DNA of 47,747 bases from an uncultured Flavobacteriaceae bacterium (lineage in GTDB: Bacteria > Bacteroidota > Bacteroidia > Flavobacteriales > Flavobacteriaceae). The translations under genes and the position numbers were made by a program. Position 1 is the stretch's first letter. Each line of letters opens with the position of its first letter. The notes beneath the pieces were generated by a model that saw nothing but the letters and a program-made list of their open reading frames with translations, was not told the DNA's origin and did not search any database. Positions 1 to 29,863 of this stretch are shown here, piece by piece. Location: positions 1 through 47,747 of the forward strand of contig CAKZOR010000127.1 in the NCBI GenBank assembly GCA_937136755.1, given 5' to 3'.

Positions 1-198
1 ACCACCAATACCATCAGTTACGCGAACAGTTGTGTCGTTGAGTTTAACAAAAGTATGATTAGCTGTTGGGTCATCATTCGATACACCATCGACTTCTACC
101 GTAATATGGTCGTCATCTAGGTAGTCCCAAGTAATCAGATAATCAGTAGTAGTGCCATCAGCCGTATAAGCTGAGACAGAATACTTTACCGTTGGCAT
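1..198 (-). CDS. Phage tail-fibre protein, N-terminal part (partial)
   Basis: The frame opens with ATG at 198 and runs without a stop off the left edge, so 66 residues are visible. The protein begins MPTVKYSVSAYTADGTTTDY and continues with DDDHITVEVDG and a NDTTVRVTD stretch. This pattern (short beta-rich start, 'DGTTTDY', 'ITV.VDG', 'VRV') is what I know from the tail-attachment N-terminal domain of T7-type podovirus tail fibres, including cyanophage and pelagiphage forms. An AGGAAA sequence lies just ahead of the ATG; such a strong SD is unusual for Flavobacteriaceae and is not seen before the other genes here. The receptor-binding part lies outside the window. Family call is from memory of the pattern; host of the phage is unknown. 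Confidence 0.65.
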   Translation of the reverse strand, partial: MPTVKYSVSAYTADGTTTDYLITWDYLDDDHITVEVDGVSNDDPTANHTFVKLNDTTVRVTDGIGG

Positions 199-210
199 TT
201 GATTTTCCTA

Positions 211-603
211 TTATTCTGCGAACACTTCATTAAAGCGTCTGAAGCGTTCTAAACTTTGTTGAGAGATATTAGGTCTTTGTTCGATCAGTTGAGACTTAAT
301 AGTTTCGGATAAGTGTTCTAAAAATACACCTTGGTTTTCAAGTTCAGGCTCAATTTTTGGTCCGTAGGGTACATAAGCATAACAGCTATTATTATCGATA
401 TATTTGATGAGAACTAGTATGTCATCTTCTTTTTTTTCATGACGTTTTGCATTGTTATCCAAAAGATTTCTAGAAACAGTGAGTTCAAATCCAGTAGGAG
501 TAAACCCTTGTTTGCTTTTTACTCTTCCCCAAAAAGGTGTTTGTGGTAAAATATTTGTTGTTTTTAGTTCTTCGACGTCTTTTTTCGCTAAGCTAAAAAT
601 CAT
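211..603 (-). CDS. Chimeric ORF: FemAB-like N-terminus fused to a phage-like C-terminus
   Basis: 130 codons from ATG at 603. Residues about 1-106 resemble the first domain of FemAB-type peptidoglycan-bridge aminoacyltransferases: 'ILPQTPFWGRVKSKQGF', then 'DILVLIKYI' and 'YAYVPYGP'. Such proteins are normally about 340-400 residues. From about residue 107 (base ~286) the expected continuation (a segment like 'N..FIRYD.PW') is absent. Instead there is a short hydrophilic tail ending RFRRFNEVFAE, followed 12 bases on by the phage tail-fibre start. In T7-like phages the gene before the fibre encodes an internal virion protein, so this tail is plausibly the C-terminus of such a gene. The product is unlikely to be functional. 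The breakpoint position is my estimate from where similarity to FemAB stops. Confidence 0.55.
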   Translation of the reverse strand: MIFSLAKKDVEELKTTNILPQTPFWGRVKSKQGFTPTGFELTVSRNLLDNNAKRHEKKEDDILVLIKYIDNNSCYAYVPYGPKIEPELENQGVFLEHLSETIKSQLIEQRPNISQQSLERFRRFNEVFAE

Positions 604-700
604 TGTTTTTTTTACAAAACTAAAAATTTACTTTTGATAAGAAAAACACATGAAATAAATTAGGATCGGAGATTAGTCCATTTTTTTATTTGAAAAATAT

Positions 701-1222
701 TTAGGTCTTGTTTAAATACCTTTCTTTAATAACATTTTTATGGTGTATGGTATGACCAATAATTGCAAAACCAAGAGCTTTTGCAGTTATATCACCACCT
801 TCTGATTTAGCTTTGAAATTATATTGATTTTCAGAAACTCCTTCGTAAAGTTTGATTGTGTTTTTTCGCGCAAATTCAAATTCTTGTATTAATGAATCCA
901 ATTCGATATTAGATACATCTCTATTCTCTACATATAGGTTTTCATTCATGCTAGGTAAAAGGATTGTATCATCCATTCTGATACAAACTAATGCTCTGTA
1001 TGCGAAAACGCGTTCACTGTCAATTATATGTGCAAGCAATTCTTTGATAGACCATTTTCCAGAAGCGTATTTATAATCTCCAAAATCCTTTGGGATAGAC
1101 TTAAAAAAAGAAATTATTTTATCTAAATTTTCATCCATCATAGAAACTAAATCTCCACTTGGAACTAAATCAATATAATTCTTGAAAAATGGGTTGTATT
1201 CGTCTGAAGTTGGTTTGTCCAT
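701..1222 (-). CDS. DinB-like (DfrB/YfiT-type) four-helix protein
   Basis: 173 residues, ATG at 1222, four bases after the stop of the DUF808 gene, so probably co-transcribed with it. It has the DinB superfamily signature: the helix 'GKWSIKELLAHIIDSERVFAYR' region with its conserved His at about residue 66, and a C-terminal 'IGHTIHHKNVIKERY' with two more candidate metal-binding His. Length matches the family (150-180 residues). DinB proteins are metal-dependent four-helix bundles; many act as thiol S-transferases (bacillithiol or mycothiol), and bacillithiol occurs in several Bacteroidota, but the substrate here cannot be read from the sequence. Cytoplasmic; no signal peptide. A -7-like element upstream was not convincing, which also suggests read-through from the preceding gene. 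Confidence 0.8.
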   Translation of the reverse strand: MDKPTSDEYNPFFKNYIDLVPSGDLVSMMDENLDKIISFFKSIPKDFGDYKYASGKWSIKELLAHIIDSERVFAYRALVCIRMDDTILLPSMNENLYVENRDVSNIELDSLIQEFEFARKNTIKLYEGVSENQYNFKAKSEGGDITAKALGFAIIGHTIHHKNVIKERYLNKT

Positions 1223-1226
1223 CTAT

Positions 1227-2093
1227 TTATTTCTTTTTTAATTTCATGATTAATTTAACAACTAATAATGCGATAAATCCTACTACTGTTCCAACAATAA
1301 ATTCGCCCAGTAAAGAAGGGAGGGAAGCAAAAAAATCGTGTATAAAATGAATATTATGAACAAATATTCCTCCTGAAACTAAAAGCATAGCAAATGTTCC
1401 AACAAAAGCTAGCACTCTGATAACGATAGGTAAACTTTTAACTAAACCGATGCCGAAACTTTTAGCCAAATTAGTTTTGTTTCCGCTAAGTGTAATTATC
1501 TTAAATCCTAAATCATCCATTCTAACGAGTAAAGCAACGACACCATAAACTCCAACTGTTGCAAGAAATGCAACAAGAGAAACAACTGGTATTTGTACTT
1601 CAATAGGTTGTTCGATCACTGTTCCAATAGCAATAATGATAATTTCAACAGAGAGAATGAAATCTATTAAAATAGCAGATTTAATTTTTTTCTTCTCAAG
1701 AACCATTAATTCACTTTCAGATAATTCTGTAGGTTTAGTTTTTAGTTTCTTATCTTTTCTATGGAATAAGAATTCATGTATTTTTTCTGCGCCTTCATAT
1801 CCTAAAAAAACACCTCCACAAAGTAAAATAATGACGATAGCAATAGGAAGAAAGGCACTTAAAAGAAAGGCTATTGGAAGAATGATAATTTTATTTAAAA
1901 AAGCCCCTTTTGTTATTTTCCATAAAACTGGTAATTCTCTTGTTGAAACAAACCCTGAAGCTTTTTCTGCATTCACCGCTAGATCATCTGCAAGTATTCC
2001 TGCTGTTTTTTTTGTAGCTACTTTACTAATTGCAGCCACATCATCCATAAGAAGAGCAATATCATCGAGTAAAGCAAAAAATCCTGAAGCCAT
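1227..2093 (-). CDS. DUF808 family inner-membrane protein (YedI-like)
   Basis: 288 residues, ATG at 2093. The N-terminus 'MASGFFALLDDIALLMDD' is the hallmark of DUF808, followed by 'KTAGILADDLAVNAEKASGF'. Five hydrophobic spans are visible at about 69-99 (long, possibly two helices), 139-160, 169-191, 223-247 and 261-283, with a basic cytoplasmic loop near 110-138. Length is usual for the family. The function of DUF808 is unknown; E. coli YedI is its best-known member. The gene is first of a probable two-gene unit with the DinB-like gene, behind the promoter at 2135-2168. Confidence 0.85.
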   Translation of the reverse strand: MASGFFALLDDIALLMDDVAAISKVATKKTAGILADDLAVNAEKASGFVSTRELPVLWKITKGAFLNKIIILPIAFLLSAFLPIAIVIILLCGGVFLGYEGAEKIHEFLFHRKDKKLKTKPTELSESELMVLEKKKIKSAILIDFILSVEIIIIAIGTVIEQPIEVQIPVVSLVAFLATVGVYGVVALLVRMDDLGFKIITLSGNKTNLAKSFGIGLVKSLPIVIRVLAFVGTFAMLLVSGGIFVHNIHFIHDFFASLPSLLGEFIVGTVVGFIALLVVKLIMKLKKK

Positions 2094-2134
2094 ATATTAG
2101 TTTTTTTTAGTGAAATTGTTGTTTTAATCTTTAT

Positions 2135-2168
2135 CAAAAATAAAGAAAAAGAGACTTGAATCATCAAA
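2135..2168 (-). promoter_or_regulatory. Candidate promoter of the DUF808 gene
   Basis: On the minus strand there is a Bacteroidetes-type -7 box TATTTTTG (2142 down to 2135) and a -33 box TTTG (2168-2165), 22 bases apart. The predicted start lies about 35 bases ahead of the ATG. The match to TAnnTTTG is exact, but the spacing is at the long end of what is usual. Confidence 0.4.
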
Positions 2169-2202
2169 TTATAAAGATAATATAGCTGAAGTGTGATTTT
2201 AT

Positions 2203-2296
2203 ATTCAGCCCCTTCAGGGCTGGAGGATGCTGGTTTGGGAATCACATAGGGATACTCCCTATGTTACAGGGAATTACACCCCTTCAGGGTAATGAA
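2203..2296. repeat. Repeat unit A of the CCCTTCAGGG family
   Basis: A roughly 94-base unit starting ATTCAGCCCC and ending CCCTTCAGGGTAATGAA. It contains the perfect 9-bp stem ACATAGGGA/TCCCTATGT with a three-base loop. The unit at 2389-2477 aligns with it over its whole length with scattered differences. Confidence 0.6.
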
Positions 2297-2723
2297 ATAT
2301 ATAGGTTAAATATAATTTATTTGGTAAAAAAGAAAACGATAATTCTTTCAAGTGTTATAAGAAATATCTTTGAAAGTTGAATAGTTTTATTCAGCCCTGG
2401 AAGAGGTTGGTGTGGGTAATCACATAGGGATGGCTCCCTATATTAACGGATATTATACCCTTTCAGGGTAATGAATTGTGTAGAATGTTTTTAGTGATAA
2501 CGATGAGTTTTCTGAAGTGGGAGGAGGTAATCACATTATCGTTAGATGAAGCTTATCGGTATAAAGGCTTCTCTATACTATATATAATACTTTTTGTAAA
2601 GAAAAGCATCTAGGGTTTCTTCTGATTATAGCTATGAGTATCCCTGAAAGGGATTAATCCATTAACGATGGATGAAGTCTATCGGTATGAAGTGCACACA
2701 GAGTAACCCAGCCCTGAAGGGGC
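2208..2723. repeat. MITE-like element with 16-bp terminal inverted repeats
   Basis: The sequence GCCCCTTCAGGGCTGG at 2208-2223 is repeated exactly in inverse orientation at 2708-2723, bounding 516 bp without a plausible gene. Inside are two related units (2203-2296 and 2389-2477), each running from ATTCAGCC through a TCACATAGGGA...TCCCTAT hairpin to a CAGGGTAATGAA end, and a pair of 32-33-base direct repeats (2536-2567 and 2662-2694, sharing GATGAAG and TATCGGTAT). In the first unit ACATAGGGA/TCCCTATGT is a perfect 9-bp stem (2244-2264). CCCTGAAGGG-type palindromes are common intergenic repeats in Bacteroidota. I see no transposase and no clear target-site duplication. It fills most of the 650-base gap between the DUF808 gene and the next lipoprotein gene. 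Confidence 0.6.
2389..2477. repeat. Repeat unit B of the CCCTTCAGGG family
   Basis: Direct, diverged copy of the unit at 2203-2296: it shares ATTCAGCCC at one end, AATCACATAGGGAT and CTCCCTAT in the middle, and TTTCAGGGTAATGAA at the other end. The central stem is shorter (ATAGGGA/TCCCTAT), so this copy is the more decayed one. Confidence 0.55.
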
Positions 2724-2743
2724 GAGATATTATCTACCACTTC

Positions 2744-3499
2744 TTAATCAATCTTCTCAAACTTAATGTCATCTATCCATAATCGTGCAGGGTTATCAGA
2801 CGAGTTTGCTGTAATCCCAATCTCACAGCTGCTATACATTCCTTTAGTACCTTGTTGGAAATAGAGTAGGTCTTTAGGAAGCGTATTGTTGTCTTTCGAA
2901 TCAATGATTAATTCACCATTTTGCCAAAGTCTTACGGTTCCCTTTTTCTTTCGATTAAGTTTTACTTCCCAAACGATTTCAACCCATTCATTTCTTGGGA
3001 AATCAATAGCTGTTGTTTGTGTAATATCCTTTTCATTGAACTTATGTTCTACTCTTAGTTGATTATCGACTAACGCTAATCGCATTCCAGGGCCTGCTCC
3101 AATTGCAGTTTGTTCTTCTAAGTCCATAAGGAATATCCAGTCTAATTTTTGATTTCCTTCAAGGTAATACCAAGCACTTAGTCTTACGGTTTCACCTTTC
3201 CAAAAAGCCATTTTTTGCTTAGCTAAACTAGTTTTTGAAGCACCTTCATTATCTGATTTTGCTGCGGTAAATAAAAGCGATTTATTTCCAGAATGAGCGA
3301 ATGAGGAATCTACTGCTATTGCGTTTCCTTTTCTCGTTAATTGTGTGAAAGACCATAATTCATCATCTGGTATCAATAAATCTTCTAAAGCTGAATAGTT
3401 TTCAAAGTCATCCTCCATATAGTTGGGGCCATCGTAGATTTTTTCTTTGTTACAAGCTATTGCAATAAATCCCAATAAAATTAGATACAAATACTTCAT
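2744..3499 (-). CDS. Lipoprotein with a lectin/polysaccharide-lyase-like jelly-roll domain
   Basis: 251 residues, ATG at 3499. Residues 1-16 form a lipoprotein signal (hydrophobic core, then FIAIAC with Cys16). The remainder looks like one beta-jelly-roll: 'SLLFTAAKSDNEG', 'ETVRLSAWYYLEG', 'PGMRLALVDNQLRVEHKF', 'NEWVEIVWEVKL', 'GTVRLWQNGELIID' and a final 'ARLWIDDIKFE'. This order is typical of concanavalin-like folds in heparin-lyase-I/family-14-like polysaccharide lyases and glycan-binding proteins; I cannot identify catalytic residues with confidence. The gene overlaps the following outer-membrane protein gene's stop by four bases, so the pair is translationally coupled. Function not assigned. 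Confidence 0.65.
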   Translation of the reverse strand: MKYLYLILLGFIAIACNKEKIYDGPNYMEDDFENYSALEDLLIPDDELWSFTQLTRKGNAIAVDSSFAHSGNKSLLFTAAKSDNEGASKTSLAKQKMAFWKGETVRLSAWYYLEGNQKLDWIFLMDLEEQTAIGAGPGMRLALVDNQLRVEHKFNEKDITQTTAIDFPRNEWVEIVWEVKLNRKKKGTVRLWQNGELIIDSKDNNTLPKDLLYFQQGTKGMYSSCEIGITANSSDNPARLWIDDIKFEKID

Positions 3500-3981
3500 T
3501 GCTTTTTATTGTTTAAAGTGTAACCAATAGAAATACCTCCCCAATGTTGAACTTGAAAGTCAATTAAATAGTAGATGAGTGGAGTATAAGCAACTCTATA
3601 AAACCATTTTTTAGATGGGTTTTGATACCTATATCCAATAGAAGCTGTAGTTAAAGCGAAAAAACTTCCTCTAGTCGTTATTGTAACTCCTTGTCCAATA
3701 CCAATATCTAGTTTATGATTGTTCTCGCCTTTTAGCCAATGAACCATTAAAGGGAATACAATGCCGGTACCATTGTTTTTATCGATAGGCGCAAAGCTTA
3801 ATCCTGTTCTCCAAACAAATGTACTTTTAGGTTTAATTAAAAATTCTTTTTCAAAGTTGATAGAGGCAATACCACCGCTTCCAGCAAGCTCAAAACAGAT
3901 TGATTTCTTTTTACTCGTTTCGGTTTGAGCAAAAGAAAAAAAACTGATAAATAAAGAAGTAATAACAACTATTAGTTTCAT
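3496..3981 (-). CDS. Small outer-membrane beta-barrel protein
   Basis: 161 residues, ATG at 3981. A cleavable signal peptide is clear (hydrophobic 'VVITSLFISFFSFAQ', cleavage after Ala-Gln). The mature protein consists of alternating hydrophobic/polar strands with aromatic ends ('TFVWRTGLSFAPI', 'ASIGYRYQNPSKKWFYRVAYTPLIYYLI', 'WGGISIGYTLN'), as in a small 6-8-strand outer-membrane barrel. Its stop overlaps the ATG of the jelly-roll lipoprotein gene by four bases (ATGA), suggesting the two work together at the cell surface. No family name recognised. Confidence 0.6.
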   Translation of the reverse strand: MKLIVVITSLFISFFSFAQTETSKKKSICFELAGSGGIASINFEKEFLIKPKSTFVWRTGLSFAPIDKNNGTGIVFPLMVHWLKGENNHKLDIGIGQGVTITTRGSFFALTTASIGYRYQNPSKKWFYRVAYTPLIYYLIDFQVQHWGGISIGYTLNNKKQ

Positions 3982-4059
3982 TAGTTTGATTTTTAGTCTT
4001 TTAAATAGTTTGTGAAGTTAATAATTCTAGGTAATAACTAAAATTTTATAACTCAGTAA

Positions 4060-4650
4060 TTAATCTTTATTTCGTTCTTTCAAAATAGATTCAATTTCTT
4101 CTAAATTAATATTTTTCGCTTTCAAAAGAATCAAATAGTGGTACAATAAATCTGCAGCCTCGTTTTTAAATAATTCCATATTGTTGTCTTTAGCTTCAAT
4201 AACTAATTCAACTGCTTCTTCTCCTACTTTTTGAGCTACTTTATTGATTCCTCTTTTAAAAAGGCTATTGGTATAAGAGTCTTTATCGTCTTCATCAATT
4301 TTAGAAGAAATAATTTGTTCTAACTCATAAGTAAAACCTTTAGCTGTTTCTTTTGGAAAACAAGAAATCGTTCCTAGGTGACATGTCGGACCTTGAGGGT
4401 TAACCATGAATAAAAGAGTGTCTTTATCACAATCAATATCGTAATTGACAAGTTCTAGAAAGTTTCCGGAAACTTCTCCTTTTGTCCAAAGCCTATTTTT
4501 TGTTCGGCTAAAGAAAGTAATTCGTTTTTCTTGAATAGTTTTGTTAAACGCTTCTTCGTTCATGTAACCTAACATTAAAACTTGAAGCGTAGCATTGTTT
4601 TGAATGATAACAGGAACCAGTCCGTCCCCTTTTTTAAAATCGATATTCAT
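4060..4650 (-). CDS. hisIE: HisIE: phosphoribosyl-AMP cyclohydrolase / phosphoribosyl-ATP pyrophosphatase
   Basis: 196 residues, ATG at 4650. It catalyses steps 2 and 3 of histidine synthesis, removing pyrophosphate from PR-ATP and opening the adenine ring of PR-AMP. The N-terminal HisI domain (about 1-100) has 'LGYMNEEAF', '[14 protein letters not shown]' and the metal-binding Cys in '[10 protein letters not shown]' and '[12 protein letters not shown]'. The C-terminal HisE domain (about 105-196) has '[12 protein letters not shown]' and '[13 protein letters not shown]'. Size and domain order are usual for Bacteroidota. Last gene of the his run; its ATG overlaps the hisF stop by four bases. 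Confidence 0.96.
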
Positions 4651-5402
4651 TTTCTTATAGGTATTTGTTGTTCTATTAAATAATTTTTTAAATCTGGAAT
4701 GGTAATTTCTCCAAAGTGGAAAATGCTAGCAGCAAGTGCTCCTGTTGCCTCTGTTTTTTCGAATACAGTATTGAAGTGTTTCATTTCACCAGCTCCACCT
4801 GAAGCAATAACTGGAATGTTTATGTTTTTAGCTACTTCGTTTGTTATTTGTAGTGAGAAACCAGCTTTTGTACCATCGCTCGTTATGGAGGTTAAAAGAA
4901 TTTCTCCAGCTCCTAAGTTTTCTAACTTTTTTGCCCATTCAATTGTTTTTAAAGAAGTTTCGGTTCTTCCGCCGTGAGTAAATACTTTCCATTCATTACC
5001 TATGAAATTAGTATCTATAGCTGCTACTATGCACTGACTTCCAAATTCATTAGCTATTTCAGTGATTAAACTAGGTGTTTTCACGATAGATGAATTTAAA
5101 CTCACTTTATCTGCACCTGCTTGAATCAGGTTTGCAACATCTTGAACAGAATTGATACCTCCACCTACTGTAAATGGGATGTTGATCTCTTTTGCAATTT
5201 GAGATACTAGTTTTAATAGCGTTTTACGTTTTTCAACAGTTGCAGTAATGTCTAAAAAAACCAATTCATCAGCTCCTTGCTCGACATATTTTTTAGCTAA
5301 TTCAATAGGGTCTCCAGCATCTTTGATGTCAACGAAATTAATTCCTTTAACTGTTCTCCCGTCTTTAATATCTAAACATGGAATAATTCTCTTTTTTAAC
5401 AT
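4647..5402 (-). CDS. hisF: HisF, imidazole glycerol phosphate synthase cyclase subunit
   Basis: 251 residues, ATG at 5402, a (beta/alpha)8 barrel. It uses ammonia delivered by HisH to convert PRFAR into IGP and AICAR. Catalytic acids are in place: Asp11 in '[10 protein letters not shown]' and Asp130 in 'VAAIDTN'. Phosphate-binding loops 'FTVGGGIN' and 'IASGGAG' are present. The start overlaps the end of hisA by seven bases and the stop overlaps hisIE. All expected positions look intact, so this gene is functional on sequence. Confidence 0.97.
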
Positions 5403-6109
5403 AATTCTCGAAGTTGTTTTAAAGAAATTCGACCTTCGTAAAAAGCTTTACCTACAATTGCTCCTTCGCAACCTATTTCTTTTAGTGTTATTAAATCCTC
5501 CATTTTTGAAACCCCACCACTTGCTATTAATTTAACTTTTGATGTTTCTAATATTTCTTGATAGAGTGCATTAGAAGTTCCTGCTAACATTCCGTCTTTT
5601 GAAATGTCAGTACATATCACATACTCTATCCCTTTTTTAGAATAAGCATCAATAAATTCGATGACATCTGTTGATGAAGTTTCTAACCATCCAGAGGTTG
5701 CTATTTTTCGATTATTACAATCAGCTCCTAATATGATTTTTTTAGCCCCATATTGTTTAACCCATTTTTCAAATCGTTGAGGGGCCTTCAAAGCTATGCT
5801 ACCACCTGTAACTTGATTAGCGCCGGATTCAAACGCTATTCTTAAATCACCGTCTGTTTTTAGACCACCACCAAAATCTACCTGAAGCGTTGTTTTTGAG
5901 CAAATTTCTTCTAAGATTTTATAGTTTACTATTTTATTAGATTTTGCCCCATCCAAGTCGACTAAATGTAAATGTGTAATTCCGTTATCTTCAAAAGCTT
6001 TTGCAACCTCTAATGGGTTTTCGTTGTATGTTTTTTGTGTCGAATAATTTCCTTTTGTTAAGCGAACACATTTTCCTTCTATGATGTCAATTGCTGGAAT
6101 AATTCTCAT
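5396..6109 (-). CDS. hisA: HisA, phosphoribosylformimino-AICAR-ribotide isomerase
   Basis: 237 residues when started at ATG 6109, which gives the family's N-terminus '[17 protein letters not shown]' and a four-base overlap with the hisH stop. A longer in-frame extension to 6250 exists but lies inside hisH and has no family similarity. Barrel isomerase carrying out the Amadori step ProFAR to PRFAR. Catalytic Asp8 and Asp130 ('ILGADCN') and the 'DFGGGL' and 'IASGGVS' loops are present. Confidence 0.96.
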
Positions 6110-6684
6110 AATTCTATAAAGGTTTTTAATAATTTTTCTCCTACACTTGCTGATTTTTCTGGGTGAAATTGAGTCGCATAAAAATTGTTTTTTTGAAGAG
6201 CTGCACTTATCGGGTTTATATAATCTGTTACCGCAATTGTTTCTTCGCATAGTTCAGCATAGTAACTGTGAACAAAATAAAAATCTTCGGAAGATTCAAT
6301 TCCTTTAAAAAGATTCCCTTCAGAGGTTTTAAAATTATTCCAACCTATGTGTGGTACTTTAAGTTTAGGAGGAAATAGTTTCACTTTCGTATCAAATATT
6401 CCTAAGCAATCAGTATTTCCTTCTTCCGAATATTTACACATTAACTGTAGTCCTAAACAAATTCCTAGAAAAGGTTGTTTTATCGAACGAATTACTTTGT
6501 CTAATTCTCTTTGTTTTAAATAATTCATTGCAGAACTAGCTTCTCCAACTCCAGGGAAAATAACTTTATCAGCATTTAAAATGGTAGTCTTATCGTCTGT
6601 AATGACACTTTCAACACCAAGTCGATTCAAGGCATTTTGAACTGATTGGATGTTCCCTGCATTGTATTTTATAATTGCAATCAT
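6106..6684 (-). CDS. hisH: HisH, imidazole glycerol phosphate synthase glutaminase subunit
   Basis: 192 residues, ATG at 6684. Class I glutamine amidotransferase that feeds ammonia to HisF. The triad is visible: Cys76 in '[10 protein letters not shown]', His174 and Glu176 in 'TQFHPEKS'. The N-terminal '[13 protein letters not shown]' and 'IFPGVGEA' are also typical. Coupled by ATGA-type overlaps to hisB before it and hisA after it. The order hisB-H-A-F-IE is the usual Bacteroidota one. Confidence 0.96.
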
Positions 6685-7442
6685 AATGTTCCCTTTGTAC
6701 TTGGTATACTGAAATTATCTGTCTTACTAATTGCTATTTTCACTGCTTTAGCAAAAGCTTTGAATATTGCTTCAATTTTGTGGTGTTCATTTTCTCCTTC
6801 AGCTTTAATGTTTAGATTACATTTTGCAGCATCGCTAAAAGATTTAAAAAAGTGCATAAACATTTCGGTAGGCATTTCGCCTATTTTTTCTCTTTTAAAT
6901 AGTGCATCCCAGACTAACCATGGTCTCCCTCCAAAATCAATCGCAACTTGTGCTAAACAATCATCCATTGGTAACAAGAACCCGTATCGTTGAATTCCTT
7001 TTTTGTTTTCTAAAGCTTTTGTAAATGCTTCACCTAAAGTAATGGCTACATCTTCAATGGTATGGTGCTCATCAATTTCTAAATCTCCTTGAACTTGAAT
7101 GGTTAAATCAATTTCACCGTGTTTTGAAATCTGCTCTAGCATGTGGTCGAAAAAACCAACCCCAGTTTGAATATTAGATTTTCCATTTCCATCTAAATTA
7201 ATAGTTACGGAAATTTTGGTTTCTTTTGTTGTTCTCAATACAGTTGCTTGACGTGGAATTTCCTTTAAATAATTATATATTTCCGACCATTTTAAAGTAC
7301 TTAAAATTGCCTTTTCATTCTCTTTGCCAATAAATATTCCTCTAGCATTTAAATTTGTCGCTAACTCTATATCTGTGTTTCTGTCTCCAATTACAAAAGA
7401 GTTTTCTAAATCATACGAACCATAAATGTATTTTTGAAGCAT
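6681..7442 (-). CDS. hisB: HisB, 5'-truncated: IGP dehydratase domain intact, phosphatase domain cut
   Basis: Bacteroidota HisB is normally a fusion of about 380 residues (histidinol-phosphatase plus IGP dehydratase). Here the dehydratase domain (from about residue 65) is complete, with 'DEHHTIED' and 'NEHHKIEA' metal motifs and the SxKGxL-type end. The phosphatase part starts mid-domain. The first available ATG is 7442, but HisB-like coding clearly continues upstream to about 7535 ([12 protein letters not shown], then [14 protein letters not shown]). Similarity then stops and a stop codon follows at 7583-7581. About 75 N-terminal residues, including the catalytic DxDGT motif, are missing, so phosphatase activity must be absent. 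An internal start at 7442 could still give an active dehydratase. hisG, hisD and hisC, usually just upstream, are absent. Confidence 0.9.
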
Positions 7443-7537
7443 ACCTGTGCGAGGTTTTCTCGTCGGAGCATTATCTTCAGGAAAACTTTTATCAATTAAA
7501 ATCTCAGTAAATTCAATTCCTTCATTTTTGACATGGA

Positions 7538-7615
7538 TTAACCCTCCGACTTCTCTGATTTTATTGAAAAAAGCAACGAATTAATAAAAATTAAATTAAT
7601 AATTGCCAATTTCAT
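7538..7615 (-). pseudogene. Possible 5' stub of a secreted protein gene, cut at the hisB junction
   Basis: Minus-strand ATG at 7615 opens 25 codons starting [15 protein letters not shown], a plausible signal-peptide start, and ends at a stop (7540-7538) that lies next to where HisB similarity begins, in a different frame. It sits correctly spaced below a promoter-like sequence. The reading is that a gene's 5' end has been joined to the 3' portion of hisB. It could equally be a chance ORF. Confidence 0.3.
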
Positions 7616-7630
7616 TGCCAAATGATCGTA

Positions 7631-7659
7631 CAAAGTTACCCCAAAGTTAAGTTTACAAA
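7631..7659 (-). promoter_or_regulatory. Candidate promoter with tandem TAACTTTG -7 boxes
   Basis: Minus strand: two exact TAnnTTTG matches, TAACTTTG at 7649-7642 and again at 7638-7631, with a TTTG -33 box at 7659-7656 placed 17 bases ahead of the second. It would drive the stub at 7615 and, by read-through, the truncated hisB and the his genes behind it. Confidence 0.4.
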
Positions 7660-7754
7660 AGAAAAAAAGATATTTATTTCCTTCTATTGCAAAATAAGGG
7701 ATCATACCTAATAAAGGGCAAAAATATTAATGGCTCTGTGAATAAAATATAGCG

Positions 7755-9119
7755 CTAATTCTTCTTTACATAGCGTCCATTTTTAATGACCGCTTGTATA
7801 GAGGTGGTGTTTTTTATATTGATTAATGGGTTCTTTTTTAACAGTAAGATATCTGCTTTTTTACCAATACCTATTGCCCCATAGTCTTCCTCTACCCCCA
7901 ACCATTTGGGACCATTAATTACAGAGGTTTTTAAAGCCTCTAATGGACTTAGTCCAACAGCTACCAGAGATTCAAGTTCCTTGTGAAGTGATGGTCCAGG
8001 ATATACATAAGCATTGTAAGCTCCTGCATCTGAACCAGCCATTAATTGAACTCCGGATTCGTGAAGTTTTAGTGTTAGTTTTCTAAAAAATGCATTTAAA
8101 TTTTTGCGATTAGCACGAGTTTCAGGAGTACTGTTTAATGCGCTTTTAATTCTTCTTTCATAGGTGCTTTTAAAACGAGCGCTTAGTAAGTTAAGGTATT
8201 CATCAGTTGAGTGATCAATCTCATCTAAATAACTCAGTGTATTCCCAATGTGAAGGGTTGGAATCACAAAAACCTCATGCTTCTTCATTTTACTGAATAA
8301 ACGATTAGCGGTAGTGTCATTGTAAGAATTGATCAATAAGGGCATGGCTTGCCAAAACCCAAGTGTACCACGCTGGAATTGTTTTGTGATTTCTAATTCA
8401 TCTTTGGAGCTTCCTTTTAGTATGTAGTAAAGATGCTCTACACCATTCATTCCAGCATCTAAGGCTTGGTTTAAGGTAACACTAAAGGGCATATGACCGG
8501 AGGTTATTAAGCCTCTAGTTTTTGATTTTTTAAGAGCAGATAAAAAGAGGTTTCCATTTAATTTACTGTCGTAGAGTTTAACGAAATTTACCTTGAGTTT
8601 TTCTAAAGAATCTAAAGCCTGATCTAGTTCAGCCTCTGATTCAACCTCCAATGATCCTTGCCAGGTGGGATTTTTACCATCAATTTTAGGACCAGAGGTA
8701 AATATAGTAGGGCCCACTCGTTCATTTTTTGAAATTTCAACCTGCCAATCCTTTATAATAGAAGTAAGATCTCCTCCTGCATCTCTAACAGAGGTAATGC
8801 CATTGTTGATGAGTTGCTCTAAGAACATTTCATTATCTTTTAAAAGGGAAGCTCCTCCCCTAAAGTGAATGTGATTGTCCCACAAGCCCGGTATAGCAAA
8901 GGCTCCCTTTGCATCAATAGTTTCTTTTGCCTTAAATTCCTTTGAGTGGGTATTTTGAATCAAGGCAATACGGTCTTGGTTTATATAGATATTAACATTT
9001 TCAATGTAACCAGTTTCCATATCAATACGATTAACGTCCAGTATGTTTACATCGTAAACAGGCTCTTTAATACATGAAAAAAAGGAGATAGTTAAGAGAC
9101 CAATTAGAATATTTTTCAT
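7755..9119 (-). CDS. Amidohydrolase-superfamily lipoprotein (imidazolonepropionase/prolidase-like)
   Basis: 454 residues, ATG at 9119. Signal with lipobox FFSC (Cys16), so likely membrane-anchored and facing the periplasm. Metal-dependent hydrolase features appear in order: 'GLWDNHIHF' with His83 and His85, 'FVKLYD' with a candidate carboxylated Lys, 'TSGHMPF', 'NGVEHLYY' and 'MAGSDAGAY' with the metal Asp. The C-terminal 'GPKWLGVEEDYGAIGIGKKADILLL' is typical of imidazolonepropionase-like/Xaa-Pro dipeptidase amidohydrolases. Substrate unknown. It stands alone: divergent from the glycan-binding protein gene upstream, and the truncated hisB downstream is probably not its natural neighbour. Confidence 0.85.
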   Translation of the reverse strand: MKNILIGLLTISFFSCIKEPVYDVNILDVNRIDMETGYIENVNIYINQDRIALIQNTHSKEFKAKETIDAKGAFAIPGLWDNHIHFRGGASLLKDNEMFLEQLINNGITSVRDAGGDLTSIIKDWQVEISKNERVGPTIFTSGPKIDGKNPTWQGSLEVESEAELDQALDSLEKLKVNFVKLYDSKLNGNLFLSALKKSKTRGLITSGHMPFSVTLNQALDAGMNGVEHLYYILKGSSKDELEITKQFQRGTLGFWQAMPLLINSYNDTTANRLFSKMKKHEVFVIPTLHIGNTLSYLDEIDHSTDEYLNLLSARFKSTYERRIKSALNSTPETRANRKNLNAFFRKLTLKLHESGVQLMAGSDAGAYNAYVYPGPSLHKELESLVAVGLSPLEALKTSVINGPKWLGVEEDYGAIGIGKKADILLLKKNPLINIKNTTSIQAVIKNGRYVKKN

Positions 9120-9325
9120 AAAAACTAAGATACTAATAAAAAGACATCAGATGCTGGGCGTTTTCTCCAAAACTGCGTGGAGGAAATGATATAAAGTCAA
9201 ATAATACCATTAATACGATTAAGCATCATTTTTATTTAAATCGATTACCTAAACAAAGGTTTTAAAAAAATCATAAATTGAATTATTTTGAAAAGTTTTA
9301 ATTAATTTCGAAAAAAATTTAAAAA

Positions 9326-10978
9326 ATGAAAAAGATATCTCAATTATTTAACACAAAACAGGTGTTTTTATTTGCAAGTGCATTGACTTTAATAGCTTGC
9401 TCAAATGACGACAACGATGAACCTATTATTGATGCAGAACCGGAACCAGTTGGAGTGGTCGTAGAGGGTTGTGATAGTTTTACTGAAGCACTTCCAAGTT
9501 TGAACACAGCAACTATTGACTTTGAATGTAATGGAAATCCCTTTTCTGAAGAAGGTGCTCTATCAGATGCGAATCTGAACGGAACTTGGGGAAGATTTGG
9601 AGGCGCTGCAGGAGTTGAATACTTAGAACTTAATTATGTAGATAATCCTAATCCAGGTACGGTAAACAGTTCTTCAAAAGTATTGAAAATAGAGGAAGAT
9701 GCGGGTATTGAGCCTTGGGCAGGCTTCTTTTTTAATCTCAATGAAAAAATTATCTTCCCTACTGGTCAAGAAGCCATTTCTATTGATGTACACTCAGCAG
9801 CACCAGGACAAAATGTATTGTTAAAAATTGAAGACTCCTCAAATTCAGATAATTTCAAAGAAGCTACAGTAACTACAACAGCCACAGGTGCATGGGAGAA
9901 ATTAGTCTATAATTTTTCTGCTGAGGACAGTAATAAATATGACAGAATTGTAATTATTGCCGCTATAACAACTACAAACAGCGAAGAAACAACTTACTAT
10001 ATAGACAATGTAGCATTCTCTACTCCTGTAGCTGTTGAAGAAGTGAGTAGCCCATCTGCTGCTCCAGCAGCACCATCTTTGGACGCTGCAGACGTATTGT
10101 CTGTATTTAGCGATTCTTACACAGATGTAGCTGGAACAGATTTTAATCCAAACTGGGGACAAAGTACCCAAGTAAGCACAGTAGATTTAGGGGGTAACTC
10201 CGTACTAAAATACGCTGGTTTAAATTACCAAGGAACTGCATTTGAATCCCCATTAAACGTTAGTGGGTACACTTCAATTCACATTGACTACTGGACATCA
10301 GATTCAACTGCATTAAACTTCTTCTTGATTAGTTCAGGAGAAGGAAAAGAAAAAGCCAAAGCTTTAGATGTAAGCAGTCTAGGCGAATGGAAAAGTGTAG
10401 ATATTGCTTTGACTGATTTCTCTGATGTAGTAGATTTAGCAGATGTAATTCAGTTTAAAGTAGATGGAAATGGTACAGTTTTCTTTGATAATATTTATTT
10501 TCACGGTGAAACCCCTGTAGCTTCTTCTCCGGCAGCTGGACCAGAAGCACCAACGGCTGCGGCTGAAGATGTTTTATCCATATTTAGTGATTCTTACACA
10601 GACGTTGAGGGAACTAACTTCAATCCAGATTGGGGACAAAGTACCCAAGTAACCACAGAGCTTTTAGCAGATAATTCTGTGTTAAAATACACCAACCTAA
10701 ACTACCAAGGAACAGAATTTACAGCGCAAGATGTAAGTACTTACAGCAGCATTCATATTGATTACTGGTCTGCAGATCAAACAACGGTAGATTTCTTCCT
10801 AATCAGTAATGAACCTACTACAGAAGTTAAAAAAACGTTAGCCATTACACCAGGAGAGTGGAATAGTATTGATATACCATTAAGTGAGTTCTCTCCAGTT
10901 GAATTGAATAAAGTTTTTCAATTTAAAATTGTTGGCGCAGGAACGATCTTTTTTGACAACATTTACTTCAAGAAATAA
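9326..10978 (+). CDS. Surface glycan-binding lipoprotein with tandem beta-sandwich modules
   Basis: 550 residues, ATG at 9328-9326 region (first base 9326). Lipoprotein signal ending LIACSNDD; the acidic residues after the Cys fit a surface-export signal of Bacteroidota lipoproteins. A first module (about 60-230) is followed by two closely related modules (about 245-395 and 405-550). Both of these contain VLS.FSDSYTDV, then F.P.WGQSTQV, LKY..LNYQGT, SIHIDYW and FFDNIYF. The linkers are Ala/Pro/Ser-rich. Such modules accompany laminarinases in flavobacterial polysaccharide utilisation loci and bind glucan. The GH16 gene follows after about 37 bases, so a shared operon is likely. No SusC/SusD pair is present in the window. 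Binding specificity is inferred from the neighbour. Confidence 0.75.
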   Translation: MKKISQLFNTKQVFLFASALTLIACSNDDNDEPIIDAEPEPVGVVVEGCDSFTEALPSLNTATIDFECNGNPFSEEGALSDANLNGTWGRFGGAAGVEYLELNYVDNPNPGTVNSSSKVLKIEEDAGIEPWAGFFFNLNEKIIFPTGQEAISIDVHSAAPGQNVLLKIEDSSNSDNFKEATVTTTATGAWEKLVYNFSAEDSNKYDRIVIIAAITTTNSEETTYYIDNVAFSTPVAVEEVSSPSAAPAAPSLDAADVLSVFSDSYTDVAGTDFNPNWGQSTQVSTVDLGGNSVLKYAGLNYQGTAFESPLNVSGYTSIHIDYWTSDSTALNFFLISSGEGKEKAKALDVSSLGEWKSVDIALTDFSDVVDLADVIQFKVDGNGTVFFDNIYFHGETPVASSPAAGPEAPTAAAEDVLSIFSDSYTDVEGTNFNPDWGQSTQVTTELLADNSVLKYTNLNYQGTEFTAQDVSTYSSIHIDYWSADQTTVDFFLISNEPTTEVKKTLAITPGEWNSIDIPLSEFSPVELNKVFQFKIVGAGTIFFDNIYFKK

Positions 10979-11015
10979 TATATTTACATTCTAATAACTT
11001 AAAAAAATAGCATTG

Positions 11016-11873
11016 ATGCAAAGCGCTTTCAAACACTCTAAAACAGTCTTATTCATCAATGCTATTTTATTTTTAAGCCTGAGTTCATGCTCAACAGAAG
11101 ATGGTTCAGAACCAGACAATACACCAGTAGAACAAGGCCAATCCCTCACAGAAACAGATAAAGTGGGACTTATATGGTCCGAAGAATTTGAAGGCAGCAA
11201 TTTAGATAATAGCACATGGACCTATGATCTGGGAGATGGTAGTGCCTTTGGGATTCCTGGATGGGGAAATCAAGAAGTACAGACTTATACCGCTTCATCG
11301 AAAAATCTGAAAATAGCCAATGGCTTTTTAACCATCACTGCTCTCAGGGAAAATCTAGATGGAAAATCCTACACTTCAGCTAGAATTAAATCTCAAAATA
11401 AATTCTCATTCAAACACGGACAATTAAAAGTGAGGGCTAAGTTTCCTCAATCTAAAGGAACATGGCCTGCTGTTTGGCTTATGGGAGCCAATTTAGATGC
11501 TGTAGGATGGCCCAATTGTGGTGAAATAGACCTTGTAGAGCAAAATGGCCAAGAAAAGAATAAAGTGCTGGGCACCGTACATTGGAAAAACAACGCAGAC
11601 AATACCAATGCTAAGTTTTCAGATGAAATTACAGCCGCCAATATAGGTGCAGATTTTAAAGAATACAGGCTTATTTGGAACGAAAAAACCATTAAGATGT
11701 ATGTAGAAAGTGTCAAGTATTTTGACATAAACTTAAATGAGTCACTACCTTTTAATCAAGAATTTTTCTTGCTTTTAAATGTAGCCATGGGAGGTAGTTT
11801 AGGAGGTGATATTCCAACCAGTTTTAACCAAGACAGTATGGTCATAGATTACATAAGACTTTACGAAAACTAA
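11016..11873 (+). CDS. GH16 endo-beta-glucanase lipoprotein (laminarinase-like)
   Basis: 285 residues starting at ATG 11016 (a TTG one codon earlier is also in frame). Lipoprotein signal with 'LSLSSCSTEDG' (Cys25), then an acidic linker. The GH16 domain covers about 52-285: 'LIWSEEFEGSNLD', 'YTASSKNLKIANGFLTITA', 'SFKHGQLKVRAKFP' and the catalytic signature 'NCGEIDLVEQNG', with Glu170 as nucleophile, Asp172 and Glu175 as acid/base. The absence of an extra bulge residue (EIDLVE rather than EIDIVE plus Met) is compatible with a beta-1,3-glucanase, but I cannot separate laminarinase from other GH16 activities by eye. It converges on the cytochrome gene with only two bases between the stops. Confidence 0.88.
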   Translation: MQSAFKHSKTVLFINAILFLSLSSCSTEDGSEPDNTPVEQGQSLTETDKVGLIWSEEFEGSNLDNSTWTYDLGDGSAFGIPGWGNQEVQTYTASSKNLKIANGFLTITALRENLDGKSYTSARIKSQNKFSFKHGQLKVRAKFPQSKGTWPAVWLMGANLDAVGWPNCGEIDLVEQNGQEKNKVLGTVHWKNNADNTNAKFSDEITAANIGADFKEYRLIWNEKTIKMYVESVKYFDINLNESLPFNQEFFLLLNVAMGGSLGGDIPTSFNQDSMVIDYIRLYEN

Positions 11874-11875
11874 GG

Positions 11876-12904
11876 CTACTTTACCTTCACAATACCGTAC
11901 TCTTTTTTGTAATAATCAGCAATGGGTCCAAAAGGTCCTAGCTCATGCTGTTCAATTGGAAATGGATCTGCATAAGGACCATAAGGCGTAGACATGGGCT
12001 TTTTAGTCCGGTCTGGAAAATCTGCTGATAAGGCGGCTTTTTCAGGTCTTTGCTGCTGGTTCATATAAGCCGCTACATCATAGGCCTCTTCATCTGTGAG
12101 TAAAGGGTTTTGGTGACTCACCCCAAAAGGCATATTGTATTTAATGAAAGAAGCTGCAGTAAGTAATCTGGTCATTCCAGCACCATTGTTATAACTGTCT
12201 GTACCCCATAAGGGCGGATACAAATATTGTCCTCCTGTTTCTTTAGTTCCCTGCCCATTTTTTTGGTGACACAACACACACTGCTGCTCAAAGACCAGTG
12301 CACCATGGCTTAAATCTGCAGGACGGTTGGGCCACTCCATAGATTTTAAGCCTTTCTCCATGGCATTAGCATATAGGCTATTTCCAACATCCCGGGTTGT
12401 TTCCTTGTTTAACCATCCCAGAAAAGCCACTAAGGCTTTCATTTCTTGAGCGTTAACGTCCAAAGGCTTACCATTCATACTTCTGGTCAGGCAGCCATTA
12501 ATTCGGTCTTCTATGGTGCCTATTTTATTTTCTCTGCCCCTGAATTGCGGGAAACGGTCTAGTACGGTGTTTAAAGGAATGCCAAAGGCTTTGGTGCCTT
12601 CATTGAGGTGACAAGAAATACACTCTAAGTTGTTTCCGGAAAATCTCTTTGATGCATCGGCCACTTGTGGCCCAATCGTTCTAGAGGTATTTACTAAGAC
12701 TTCGTATCCCAACTGTAGTGATGGATCTTGGATAGCATAAACAGCCGCCTCTAAATCCGTTTGGTATTCAGGCACTGCTATAGGCACATATTTTTCAGGC
12801 TTTGCAGCATTAAACAAGGCAATGAAAACAATGACTATGACACCAACATATGCCAATAGTATGACCAAAAGGCTTTGGGCTAATTTTTTAATCTGCTGTT
12901 GCAT
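11876..12904 (-). CDS. TsdA-like dihaem cytochrome c (thiosulfate dehydrogenase family)
   Basis: 342 residues from ATG 12904; a longer in-frame start at 13009 would overlap the DUF2490 gene by 86 bases. Residues about 10-32 form a membrane anchor. Two CxxCH haem sites are present: C95-I-S-C98-H99 and C209-V-L-C212-H213. Between them are 'FPQFRGRENKIGTIEDRINGC' and 'RSMNG', the strongly conserved TsdA signature; the Cys of INGC (138) corresponds to the unusual axial haem ligand of TsdA. A later 'KYNMPFG' gives a candidate second-haem Met ligand. TsdA couples two thiosulfates to tetrathionate, or runs in reverse. An anchored form would pass electrons to the respiratory chain or to a sulfur-oxidising partner not present here. 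Third gene behind yqeY and DUF2490. Confidence 0.8.
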   Translation of the reverse strand: MQQQIKKLAQSLLVILLAYVGVIVIVFIALFNAAKPEKYVPIAVPEYQTDLEAAVYAIQDPSLQLGYEVLVNTSRTIGPQVADASKRFSGNNLECISCHLNEGTKAFGIPLNTVLDRFPQFRGRENKIGTIEDRINGCLTRSMNGKPLDVNAQEMKALVAFLGWLNKETTRDVGNSLYANAMEKGLKSMEWPNRPADLSHGALVFEQQCVLCHQKNGQGTKETGGQYLYPPLWGTDSYNNGAGMTRLLTAASFIKYNMPFGVSHQNPLLTDEEAYDVAAYMNQQQRPEKAALSADFPDRTKKPMSTPYGPYADPFPIEQHELGPFGPIADYYKKEYGIVKVK

Positions 12905-12923
12905 GCTTAAAATTAGGAATTTT

Positions 12924-13616
12924 TTACAAGCGAATAAAGAGAATAGAAGACCAAAGATTTTTTTCCAAAATAGCCCCTTGTTTGTCTTGATGAATGCGCT
13001 GGTAACCACTCACTAAAGTGGCTTTTGGAGACAATAAAGCCCTAAAACCTAGAAAGGTCCAGTTCTGGTTAAAAGTATGGGGGAATAAGTTTTTTGTGAA
13101 CATAAAAACCTCGTTAAAAGCCATGAATTCCAACTTTTTTCCCAAACCTAAAATAGATTTTCTCCATCCAAATCTAACACGAAACCTGCCACCAAAATCA
13201 AATTCAGATGCGGTGTTCTCTACCCACCGCTCTTCTGCCCTCAGCCATCCAAAAAAAGTGCTCTTTTTTAATGGAATGGTATAAAAAACCTGCTGCCAGA
13301 CATTGTGCTCTTTCAAAAAGACCGCTTGCTTTTCAGTATTTAAAAAGGAATAGCCTCCAGATAAAGTAATTTGTGAATTGATCTTTCTAACATAAGAGGG
13401 ACGCAAAATAAATTGCTGCTGACCCCCAAAAATATCTTTAGTCCTATAGTGGGTTTCTAATCGAATACCTTGAACAGAATCTAGCTGATAATCTGCAAAA
13501 ACAGCATTCCAAGTGTAGGTCTCTTGTCCTGAAACCACAGAGGTACTACTCATAAAAAATAAGCCCCCTATTAGTGCCACGCGAGCAAGTGTATTAGCCA
13601 AAGTGTAATTAAGCAT
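12924..13616 (-). CDS. DUF2490 outer-membrane beta-barrel protein
   Basis: 230 residues, ATG at 13616, overlapping the yqeY stop by eight bases. Signal peptide with cleavage near 'VVSGQ'. The mature part matches DUF2490: 'WNAVFADYQLDSVQGIRLETHYR', 'FILRPSYVRKINSQITLSGGYSFL', 'EHNVWQQVFY', 'FGWLRAEERWVE', 'FRVRFGWR' and a last strand ending LFIRL with a terminal hydrophobic residue, as in outer-membrane barrels. Function of the family is unknown. The cytochrome gene starts 19 bases after its stop, so the two are probably co-expressed. Confidence 0.75.
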   Translation of the reverse strand: MLNYTLANTLARVALIGGLFFMSSTSVVSGQETYTWNAVFADYQLDSVQGIRLETHYRTKDIFGGQQQFILRPSYVRKINSQITLSGGYSFLNTEKQAVFLKEHNVWQQVFYTIPLKKSTFFGWLRAEERWVENTASEFDFGGRFRVRFGWRKSILGLGKKLEFMAFNEVFMFTKNLFPHTFNQNWTFLGFRALLSPKATLVSGYQRIHQDKQGAILEKNLWSSILFIRL

Positions 13617-14058
13617 TTAAAAGTGCCTTCACCACTGTTGAGATGGTTTTACCATCTGCTTTTCCAGCCAGTTTTGCGCTTGCCTGACCCATTACCTTAC
13701 CCATATCTTGCATGCCAGTTGCGCCTGTTGCAGCAATGATTTCCGCAACAACTGCTTTAACTTCTTCTTCTGAAAGTTGGGCGGGTAAAAACTGGGCCAA
13801 TACCGCTGCCTCATCTAATTCTGGTTGGGCCAAATCTTCTCTTCCCTGCTCCTTGTAAATGGCTGCTGAATCTTGACGCTGCTTCACTAATTTTTGAACA
13901 ATTTTAATTTCGTCTGCCTCACTCATGGTGGCGCCTGACCCATCTGTTTGGGCCAATAAAAGAGCAGATTTTATAGCTCTTAAAGAAGACAATGCCACCG
14001 TATCTTTGGCGCGCATAGCTTCTTTCATTTTTGTCATTACTGCGTCTTGTAAGCTCAT
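13609..14058 (-). CDS. yqeY: GatB/YqeY domain protein
   Basis: 149 residues, ATG at 14058. 'AVMTKMKEAMRAKDTVALSSLRAIKSAL' and 'VQKLVKQRQDSAAIYKEQGREDL' followed by 'FLPAQLSEEEV' and 'GKVMGQASAKLAGKADGKTISTVVK' make this a standard stand-alone YqeY protein, usual length about 150. The domain is shared with the tail of GatB, where it helps bind tRNA; the role of the free form is unsettled. It follows ftsZ in many Flavobacteriaceae. A hairpin lies between the two, so it may be only partly co-transcribed with the dcw cluster. Confidence 0.92.
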   Translation of the reverse strand: MSLQDAVMTKMKEAMRAKDTVALSSLRAIKSALLLAQTDGSGATMSEADEIKIVQKLVKQRQDSAAIYKEQGREDLAQPELDEAAVLAQFLPAQLSEEEVKAVVAEIIAATGATGMQDMGKVMGQASAKLAGKADGKTISTVVKALLNA

Positions 14059-14084
14059 CCTGTCTGATTTTTTAATAGTGCTAA

Positions 14085-14118
14085 TATAAATAATAAACCC
14101 GAGAACAGTGCCTCGGGT
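14085..14118 (-). terminator. Terminator-like hairpin after ftsZ
   Basis: ACCCGAG (14097-14103) pairs with CTCGGGT (14112-14118): seven perfect pairs around an eight-base loop. In the minus-strand transcript it is followed by TTTATTATTT. It lies 25 bases past the ftsZ stop and 39 bases before the yqeY start. The T run is interrupted, so termination may be partial. Confidence 0.55.
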
Positions 14119-14142
14119 CTATTGGGTGTAAGTGAATTGGTA

Positions 14143-16233: not shown

Positions 16234-16260
16234 AAATTTGGGTTCTTATATTTTGGTATT

Positions 16261-17586
16261 TTATTCTGCGTTGTCTAAAAAATCTTTCAATTTCTCTGAC
16301 CATTTGTCAAAGATGTTTTTCCTTGGGGCTTTGGCCGCCTCCGGCGCCTTCTCAGCCGATGCTGCTTCAGCAACCTCTTCTTGAACTTCTTCCGTTGCGA
16401 ACTCTGTTAGCGGTTTGTGCTTCGCATCTGAAGCGACCGCACTCATTAATAAGCCTACCCCTGTAGCGTATAATGGCGAAGCAATTTCTTCTTCAGAATC
16501 TCCTGCAAGGTGCTCGTTGGGATACCCAATTCGGGTGTCCATCCCGGTAATGTATTCTACCAGTTGCTTGAGGTGTTTTAGCTGACTTCCTCCACCTGTA
16601 AGCACTATACCACCAATGAGTTTTTTCTTTTGCTCCTCATGGCCGTAATTTTTAATTTCTACATAAACCTGCTCTATAATTTCTACGACTCTTGCGTGAA
16701 TAATTTTAGAGAGGTTCTTTAGGGTAATCTCTTTTGGATCCCTTCCTCTTAATCCTGGAATAGAGACAATTTCATTGTCTTTGTTTTCTCCTGGCCAAGC
16801 AGACCCAAACTTTATTTTCAATAACTCTGCCTGCTTTTCAATAATGGAGCAGCCCTCTTTAATATCTTCTGTAATGACGTTACCCCCAAATGGGATCACG
16901 GCAGTATGGCGTATAATACCATCTTTAAAAATGGCCAGATCCGTAGTACCCCCTCCTATATCTATGAGCGCCACACCAGCTTCTTTTTCTTCCTGACTCA
17001 AGACTGCATTGGCAGACGCTAGAGGCTCAAGGGATATTTCTCCCAGATTTAGACCAGCACTCTTAATGCAGCGAACAATATTTTTTATAGAAGACACCTG
17101 TCCTACAACCACATGGAAATTGGCTTCTAGACGCCCACCATACATACCCATGGGCTCTTTTATTTCTGCCTGACCGTCTACCTTAAACTCCTGGGGTAGT
17201 ACATGAATAATTTCCTCTCCTGGAAGCATCACTAATTTATACACCTGGTTGCAAAGGTTGTCTACGTCTTCATAACCAATCACTTCTTCTGAATTGGCAC
17301 GCGTAATATAATCTGAGTGTTGTAGCGAACGAATATGCTGTCCGGCTATTCCCACAGATACCGTATCTATTTTCAAACCAGAATCTGTTTCTGCTTGTTG
17401 CACCGCTTGCTGAATAGACTCAATGGTTTGTGTAATATTATTCACCACACCTCTGTGAACCCCCAAACTTTTAGATTTCCCAATACCGAGAATTTCTATT
17501 TTACCATACTCGTTCTCCTTCCCAATAATGGCTACGATCTTTGTAGTTCCAATATCTAAGCCAACAGAATAATTTGTCTCTTTCAT
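16261..17586 (-). CDS. ftsA: FtsA, actin-like Z-ring anchor
   Basis: 441 residues from ATG 17586, chosen because the protein then starts 'MKETNYSVGLDIGTTKIVA' as in relatives; an in-frame ATG ten codons upstream (17616) would overlap ftsQ. Actin-fold ATP-binding elements are 'GLDIGTTK', 'ALIDIGGGTTDLAIF' and 'GIVLTGGGSQL'. FtsA tethers FtsZ to the membrane through a C-terminal amphipathic helix; the end here, 'KNIFDKWSEKLKDFLDNAE', fits that role. The Ala/Glu-rich linker before it is poorly conserved. Confidence 0.96.
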   Translation of the reverse strand: MKETNYSVGLDIGTTKIVAIIGKENEYGKIEILGIGKSKSLGVHRGVVNNITQTIESIQQAVQQAETDSGLKIDTVSVGIAGQHIRSLQHSDYITRANSEEVIGYEDVDNLCNQVYKLVMLPGEEIIHVLPQEFKVDGQAEIKEPMGMYGGRLEANFHVVVGQVSSIKNIVRCIKSAGLNLGEISLEPLASANAVLSQEEKEAGVALIDIGGGTTDLAIFKDGIIRHTAVIPFGGNVITEDIKEGCSIIEKQAELLKIKFGSAWPGENKDNEIVSIPGLRGRDPKEITLKNLSKIIHARVVEIIEQVYVEIKNYGHEEQKKKLIGGIVLTGGGSQLKHLKQLVEYITGMDTRIGYPNEHLAGDSEEEIASPLYATGVGLLMSAVASDAKHKPLTEFATEEVQEEVAEAASAEKAPEAAKAPRKNIFDKWSEKLKDFLDNAE

Positions 17587-17599
17587 CTGAGTATTATTA

Positions 17600-19656: not shown

Positions 19657-19785
19657 TAATAAAATTGCGCAAAATTCAATCCCGTATATGTAGTATTAAA
19701 ATACGTGAACAGTATTTTTAATGCTCTTTTATGACTAAAGTCTATGCCTTTGCAATGTTGTTTAATAATATTTATACCTGTTGAT

Positions 19786-22069: not shown

Positions 22070-22071
22070 TC

Positions 22072-24641: not shown

Positions 24642-24666
24642 AGTACTGCGCTTCTATTGGATTAGA

Positions 24667-28133: not shown

Positions 28134-28138
28134 TTTTA

Positions 28139-29827: not shown

Positions 29828-29855
29828 TATCTGTGCTAATTTTAATTAATAAGTT

Positions 29856-29863
29856 CAAATATA
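29856..29863 (-). promoter_or_regulatory. -7 box of the mraZ/dcw promoter
   Basis: TATATTTG on the minus strand, an exact TAnnTTTG match, 29 bases ahead of the GTG start. The -33 position, where TTTG would be expected, is occupied by MraZ boxes and has no good match. This fits a promoter whose polymerase contact is controlled by MraZ. Confidence 0.5.

Follow-up and report, generated by a model that had tools for sequence, protein, structure and literature searches.

The left edge of this contig raises the question of whether a flavobacterium has fused a piece of phage DNA to one of its own genes, or whether the two sequences were joined artificially. A preliminary description of the sequence had noted a T7-type tail-fibre start beside a FemAB-like gene that loses its similarity near base 286, and had left open whether an assembly or amplification chimera or a real illegitimate recombination brought them together. 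The window, that is, the whole stretch of DNA analysed here (47,747 bases), is an entire contig (C127:1-47747) of the organism's own assembly (G000), which is fragmented (1.96 Mb in 151 contigs; completeness 88.8%, contamination 2.1%), and the phage scrap therefore stands at the extreme end of a contig. The evidence now tilts strongly to an artefact because the flavobacterial side of the join is itself a cut fragment, seemingly foreign to the assembly; very probably, the join does not represent a new gene fusion. The features on which the argument is built are the following, with the supporting evidence in brackets.

1-198, minus strand: N-terminal 66 amino acids of a roseophage tail-fibre gene corresponding to gp35 of CRP-118, cut by the contig edge (PF03906, amino acid identity, DNA alignment)
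211-307, minus strand: 3' end of a roseophage gene corresponding to gp34 of CRP-118, joined in frame with the FemAB head (CRP-118 identity over 67-307, gp34 C-terminus)
286-307: junction 1, about 21 bases in which ETIKSQL of phage gp34 resembles a SETIKPQLP-like FemAB motif (word ranking)
308-603, minus strand: first ~98 codons of a truncated FemAB-family gene of a flavobacterium, here called X (homologues, length of the homologues, PF02388)
308-7529: fragment of flavobacterium X, GC 32.4%, broken inside genes at both ends (GC, composition, DNA search, second his set)
4060-7529, minus strand: hisIE-hisF-hisA-hisH-hisB of X, with hisB lacking its N-terminal part (gene calls, HisB homologues)
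7530-7777: junction 2, where X ends and own-genus sequence begins (hisB break at 7529, DNA match to the same-genus genome G001 from 7777, stop codons in frame between them)
7758-47747: DNA resembling the own genus (amidohydrolase, collinearity; 31001-47747 by base composition only)

Bases 1-307 are DNA of a T7-like roseophage. A gapless alignment places them on Roseobacter phage CRP-118 (OR420741.1, Autographiviridae), from its position 28281 down to 27975, and a chance match is excluded because 302 of the 307 bases are identical (E 2e-151). Mismatches occur at positions 40, 46, 55, 65 and 66 (n=5), while identity is complete over 67-307 and collapses from 308 on. The stretch contains the C-terminal end of gp34, a 12-base gap and the start of the tail-fibre gene gp35, in the order and with the spacing found in CRP-118. 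The fibre reading frame (1-198, minus strand, 66 aa) is open at the contig edge and carries the AGGAAA ribosome site of the preliminary description five bases before its ATG. Its assignment as a T7-type tail fibre held: residues 1-61 match Phage_T7_tail in Pfam (PF03906; E 1e-7, 32.2 bits, cut-off 25.2), the protein also matches PHROG tail-fibre families, and all 66 residues align with CRP-118 gp35 at 98.5% identity (tblastn), placing it with phage proteins and not in a chromosomal family.

The neighbouring reading frame (211-603, minus strand, 130 aa) is chimeric. It ends, letter for letter, in the C-terminus of phage gp34, ETIKSQLIEQRPNISQQSLERFRRFNEVFAE; what had been described as a short unrelated tail is indeed unrelated to the FemAB family, but is itself phage. 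CRP-118 gp34 comprises 1,211 aa, of which the window keeps the last part only before FemAB sequence takes over. The gp34 counterpart in the CRP-403 record is annotated as internal virion protein D, and the expectation that the fibre gene would directly follow an internal virion gene was borne out by 211-307 and the 12-base gap to the fibre ATG. Viral relatives share this arrangement. As DNA, window 1-300 matches three of 50,697 phage records, all of them roseophages (98.3%, 75.8% and 68.8%), and a search with the fibre protein retrieved 17 IMG/VR loci, 12 of which match 1-307 as DNA (11 over at least 236 bases, best 82.3%). Besides CRP-118, a match to 236 or more bases of 1-307 is shown by CRP-403 and by the 11 IMG/VR loci, which are not all independent (L004 equals L005, and L008 equals L009 over the first 5,198 bases), and gp34 precedes the fibre gene in all 12 of these sequences; the fibre gene therefore follows gp34, not FemAB, in these 12 relatives. 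Searching viral contigs for FemAB yielded 34 stretches that matched a pattern, none of which was confirmed. The exact 64-base junction sequence, which includes 8 bases beyond the junction, was found in no viral contig, a weak test as the closest fetched IMG/VR locus is 82% identical on the phage side. Within the assembly, nothing except the 307 bases matches CRP-118 positions 1-20000 and 21089-41088 (40 of 41 kb), and the phage collection contains no match to the right contig end (44000-47747).

A CRP-118-like phage carrying an integrase gene could, in principle, have entered the genome by site-specific prophage integration. In other phages, the attachment site lies beside the integrase gene. 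The annotated integrase gene of CRP-118 is located at 1644-2648, and the join at phage position 27975 falls inside gp34, more than 25 kb away from it. We rejected prophage integration on account of this distance and assign it a negligible probability, even though the roseophage study credits nine of its ten phages with an integrase gene (PMC11092137). Moreover, neither a tRNA gene (ARAGORN) nor an RNA family (Rfam) was detected within the window, and the host on record for CRP-118 is a Paracoccaceae strain, not a flavobacterium. According to the same study, the phage comes from the East China Sea coast, where Roseobacter strain FZCC0023 was used to isolate it in September 2021 (PMC11092137). 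Judged from the phage, the sample was probably marine.

The other side of the join belongs to a FemAB-family gene of Bacteroidota. The window's own FemAB pieces were uninformative when run against family collections: in Pfam, neither the 98-aa nor the 130-aa protein matches anything up to E 10, leaving the FemAB domain unrecognised in both, a single NCBIfam match falls far below its cut-off, and PHROGs returned nothing useful for the 130-aa protein. Full-length homologues were therefore needed. For residues 1-98, 30 relatives were confirmed in genomes of Bacteroidota, for example from Mariniflexile, Labilibaculum and Lutibacter, at 55-71% identity, and the two full-length relatives that were scanned, L027 and L029, both contain the FemAB domain (PF02388; E 1.7e-33 and 1.9e-31), in line with the FemAB-like N-terminus noted earlier. 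Alignment over open frames took in 29 of the 30 relatives (L056 matched residues 15-98 only and was left out); 27 of these are 364-370 aa long, one has 226 aa and one, running off its contig, 150 aa. The window gene, by comparison, is a truncated member of the family, cut after about 100 codons, and a phage stop codon closes its frame. The aligned homologues leave the 130-aa protein after about residue 107, following SETIKSQL, from where it continues as phage gp34 to its stop. A search with this protein matched one of 40 genomes, the window's own. Both sides of the proposed join of phage DNA to a flavobacterial gene are confirmed. The missing FemAB remainder (query: C-terminal 269 residues of L027) was not found in the own assembly, although this search, run without a positive control, shows little. 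Among 11 same-genus genomes, two gave weak matches to the 98-aa head (E 0.04 and 0.26), with stop codons.

How, then, did the two sequences come together? The proposed break exists, but its position is better described as a range. The phage match ends sharply at base 307, and the break lies there or anywhere within the ~22 bases from 286 to 307 in which both parents look alike. Position 286 marks the left edge of this zone, since the family resemblance of the window protein lasts through SETIKSQL; the right edge is the last phage base. At this site, the FemAB family reads S-E-(S/T)-I-K-P-x-L-P, with variants, and phage gp34 reads I-E-T-I-K-S-Q-L-I. We scored every 21-base word of CRP-118 on both strands (n=82,136) against the FemAB homologues at the junction codon, and the phage word at 286-306 ranked first, with 12.6 of 21 bases matching on average. 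The 29 homologues used for this, which share 55-71% protein identity with the window copy, stand in for X's own sequence past the junction. Over 26 homologues, the same word reached 12.7 of 21 matches versus a mean of 5.3 (sd 1.6), and an equal or better score was obtained for 514 of 37,782,560 pairs of phage word and position among the first 460 of FemAB. Its rank at this codon was 6 with 15-base words and 4 with 25-base words. Because ETIK-QL had already been seen to be shared when the word was picked, the test is supportive rather than independent. The resemblance agrees with joining via a short shared word, be it in software or by template switching.

The flavobacterial DNA that follows the junction apparently is foreign to the genus of the assembly. 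Its GC content is 32.4% (308-7529), as compared to 39.6% for 7530-47747. The tetranucleotide distance of 308-9261 is 0.282, whereas 17 of the 18 control chunks lie at 0.086-0.191 (14 chunks come from nine other stretches of the assembly and four from the right part of the window; the reference included them). The eighteenth chunk, from contig C150, reaches 0.300, so that one contig outside the window is equally deviant in composition, which speaks against clear-cut foreignness. Comparing bases 308-3000 as DNA with the 11 same-genus genomes gave a 32-base match in one of them and nothing more. The his genes are present a second time in the assembly, on contig C45, where HisF is 58% identical to that of the window. 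Ten of the 11 same-genus genomes have a match to the window HisF (best 56-66%, the 66% on a partial match), and the HisF of G219, which belongs to another genus, is 78% identical. Likewise, HisB shares 70-76% identity with other genera versus 62% with the C45 copy, and HisIE 63-69% versus 58%, whereas HisA shows little contrast (other genera 63-67%, same genus 57-64%). On these protein comparisons, the foreign character of the piece is clear for HisF, HisB and HisIE, and weak for HisA. When the fragment was compared with 395 genomes of the order, 364 were scored and 228 matched (own genome included); among the matches listed, the best other one reached 72% over the his genes and no close relative of X was present. 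As for gene content, the 7.2 kb hold the FemAB head, a DinB-like gene, DUF808, a polysaccharide-lyase-like gene and the his genes. We regard 308-7529 as probable contamination that became part of this contig; judged from sequence, a natural acquisition of X DNA by this genus is a possible alternative that counts against this reading.

The right end of the fragment is again a break inside a gene, given that the similarity of all five HisB homologues stops at base 7529. The DNA match to G001 begins at 7777, and the amidohydrolase gene at 7755-9119 is 84% identical at the protein level to its G001 counterpart. Further on, 12001-31000 is collinear with G010 at 94% and with G001 at 93%. A larger extent of the foreign piece, 308-9261, was rejected: its boundary is placed at ~7530, not at 9261, because of the amidohydrolase.

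The closest relative thus changes abruptly at bases 307 and 7529, and at least three sources seem to have been joined head to tail: a roseophage end (1-307), 7.2 kb of a low-GC flavobacterium (308-~7529) and 40 kb of the own genus (~7530-47747). We consider it likely that the contig is a misassembled patchwork whose join was made during assembly, and we infer that software rather than amplification chemistry was responsible. The coding strands of phage gp34 and FemAB share about 21 similar bases (codons E-T-I-K-x-Q-L), and an assembler working at a thinly covered end could have extended through this short word, from phage into FemAB or in reverse. The position of the phage scrap at the extreme end of the contig, together with the lack of matches to the rest of CRP-118 (40 of 41 kb searched) in the assembly, argues for an artefact.

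Alternatively, and in our view rather improbably, the molecules could have been joined before sequencing, by multiple displacement amplification (MDA) or library ligation, and the chimera read faithfully by the assembler. In the MDA version, a displaced 3' end would have met a short complementary stretch on another molecule and primed there anew. All three sources could have been present in a low-biomass sample that was amplified, and complementary priming stretches of up to 21 bp, as reported by Lasken and Stockwell 2007 (PMC1855051), fit junction 1. However, 406 of the 475 chimeras counted there are inversions, in 337 of which the joined segments lie less than 10 kb from each other, and the whole set comes from one E. 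coli cell, whereas different organisms are joined here. Chimeric assembly contigs and amplification chimeras (PMC1855051) likewise join unrelated sources at a short similar stretch, but the window apparently differs from them in having three sources in one contig.

Both sides of junction 1 are intact up to the break, as would also be expected had a flavobacterium taken up roseophage DNA that microhomology then joined to femAB. Short homology is usual in illegitimate end joining too, and counts in favour of such a real recombination. Nevertheless, we regard it as very unlikely. A phage that was isolated in 2021 on a Roseobacter strain (PMC11092137) shares 98.4% identity with the phage part, and the event would therefore have to be very recent. 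In addition, the phage part lies at a contig edge, beside a fragment that itself looks foreign, and two in-gene breakpoints in one contig plus duplicated his genes would call for independent rare events. We give hardly any credence to a living flavobacterium in which microhomology has very recently inserted DNA of a roseophage structural gene and fused FemAB to gp34 in frame; if true, such a case would imply a passage of phage DNA from one phylum to another with no infection involved.

With a misassembled patchwork as the preferred reading, the value of this locus lies in the quality control of this genome. A tail-fibre gene in this place would otherwise suggest a link between flavobacteria and roseophages, and the extra his genes would point to horizontal transfer; a patchwork contig accounts for both more simply. 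The observation that, at a word length of 21, no word of the phage genome resembles the bacterial gene at that codon better than the junction word could serve as a usable signature of such joins. For curation, we propose to trim the first 307 bases and to treat 308-~7529 as probable contamination.

Two other places deserve mention. The contig with the deviant control chunk, C150 (L096; 11,894 bases), has a GC content of 46.8% and a tetranucleotide distance of 0.30 relative to the other sampled contigs; it has no Rfam match and is possibly further contamination of the assembly. Within the window, similarity to three same-genus genomes begins together, at 9262 (G010 and G001) and 9292 (G008). 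At that site (window 9262-9325), G010 carries a different sequence of ~11.7 kb and then matches the end of contig C56 of the own assembly, and the contigs of G001 and G008 end within some 230 and 620 bases of it. The amidohydrolase gene lies on another contig in G001 and was not found in G010 and G008. This may reflect real variation within the genus or a third false join. Next to the site lies a 550-aa gene (9326-10978) that neither Pfam nor NCBIfam recognises. Secondary matches between this gene and its relatives, at 10052-10332 and 10581-10807, suggest that it may contain internal repeats.
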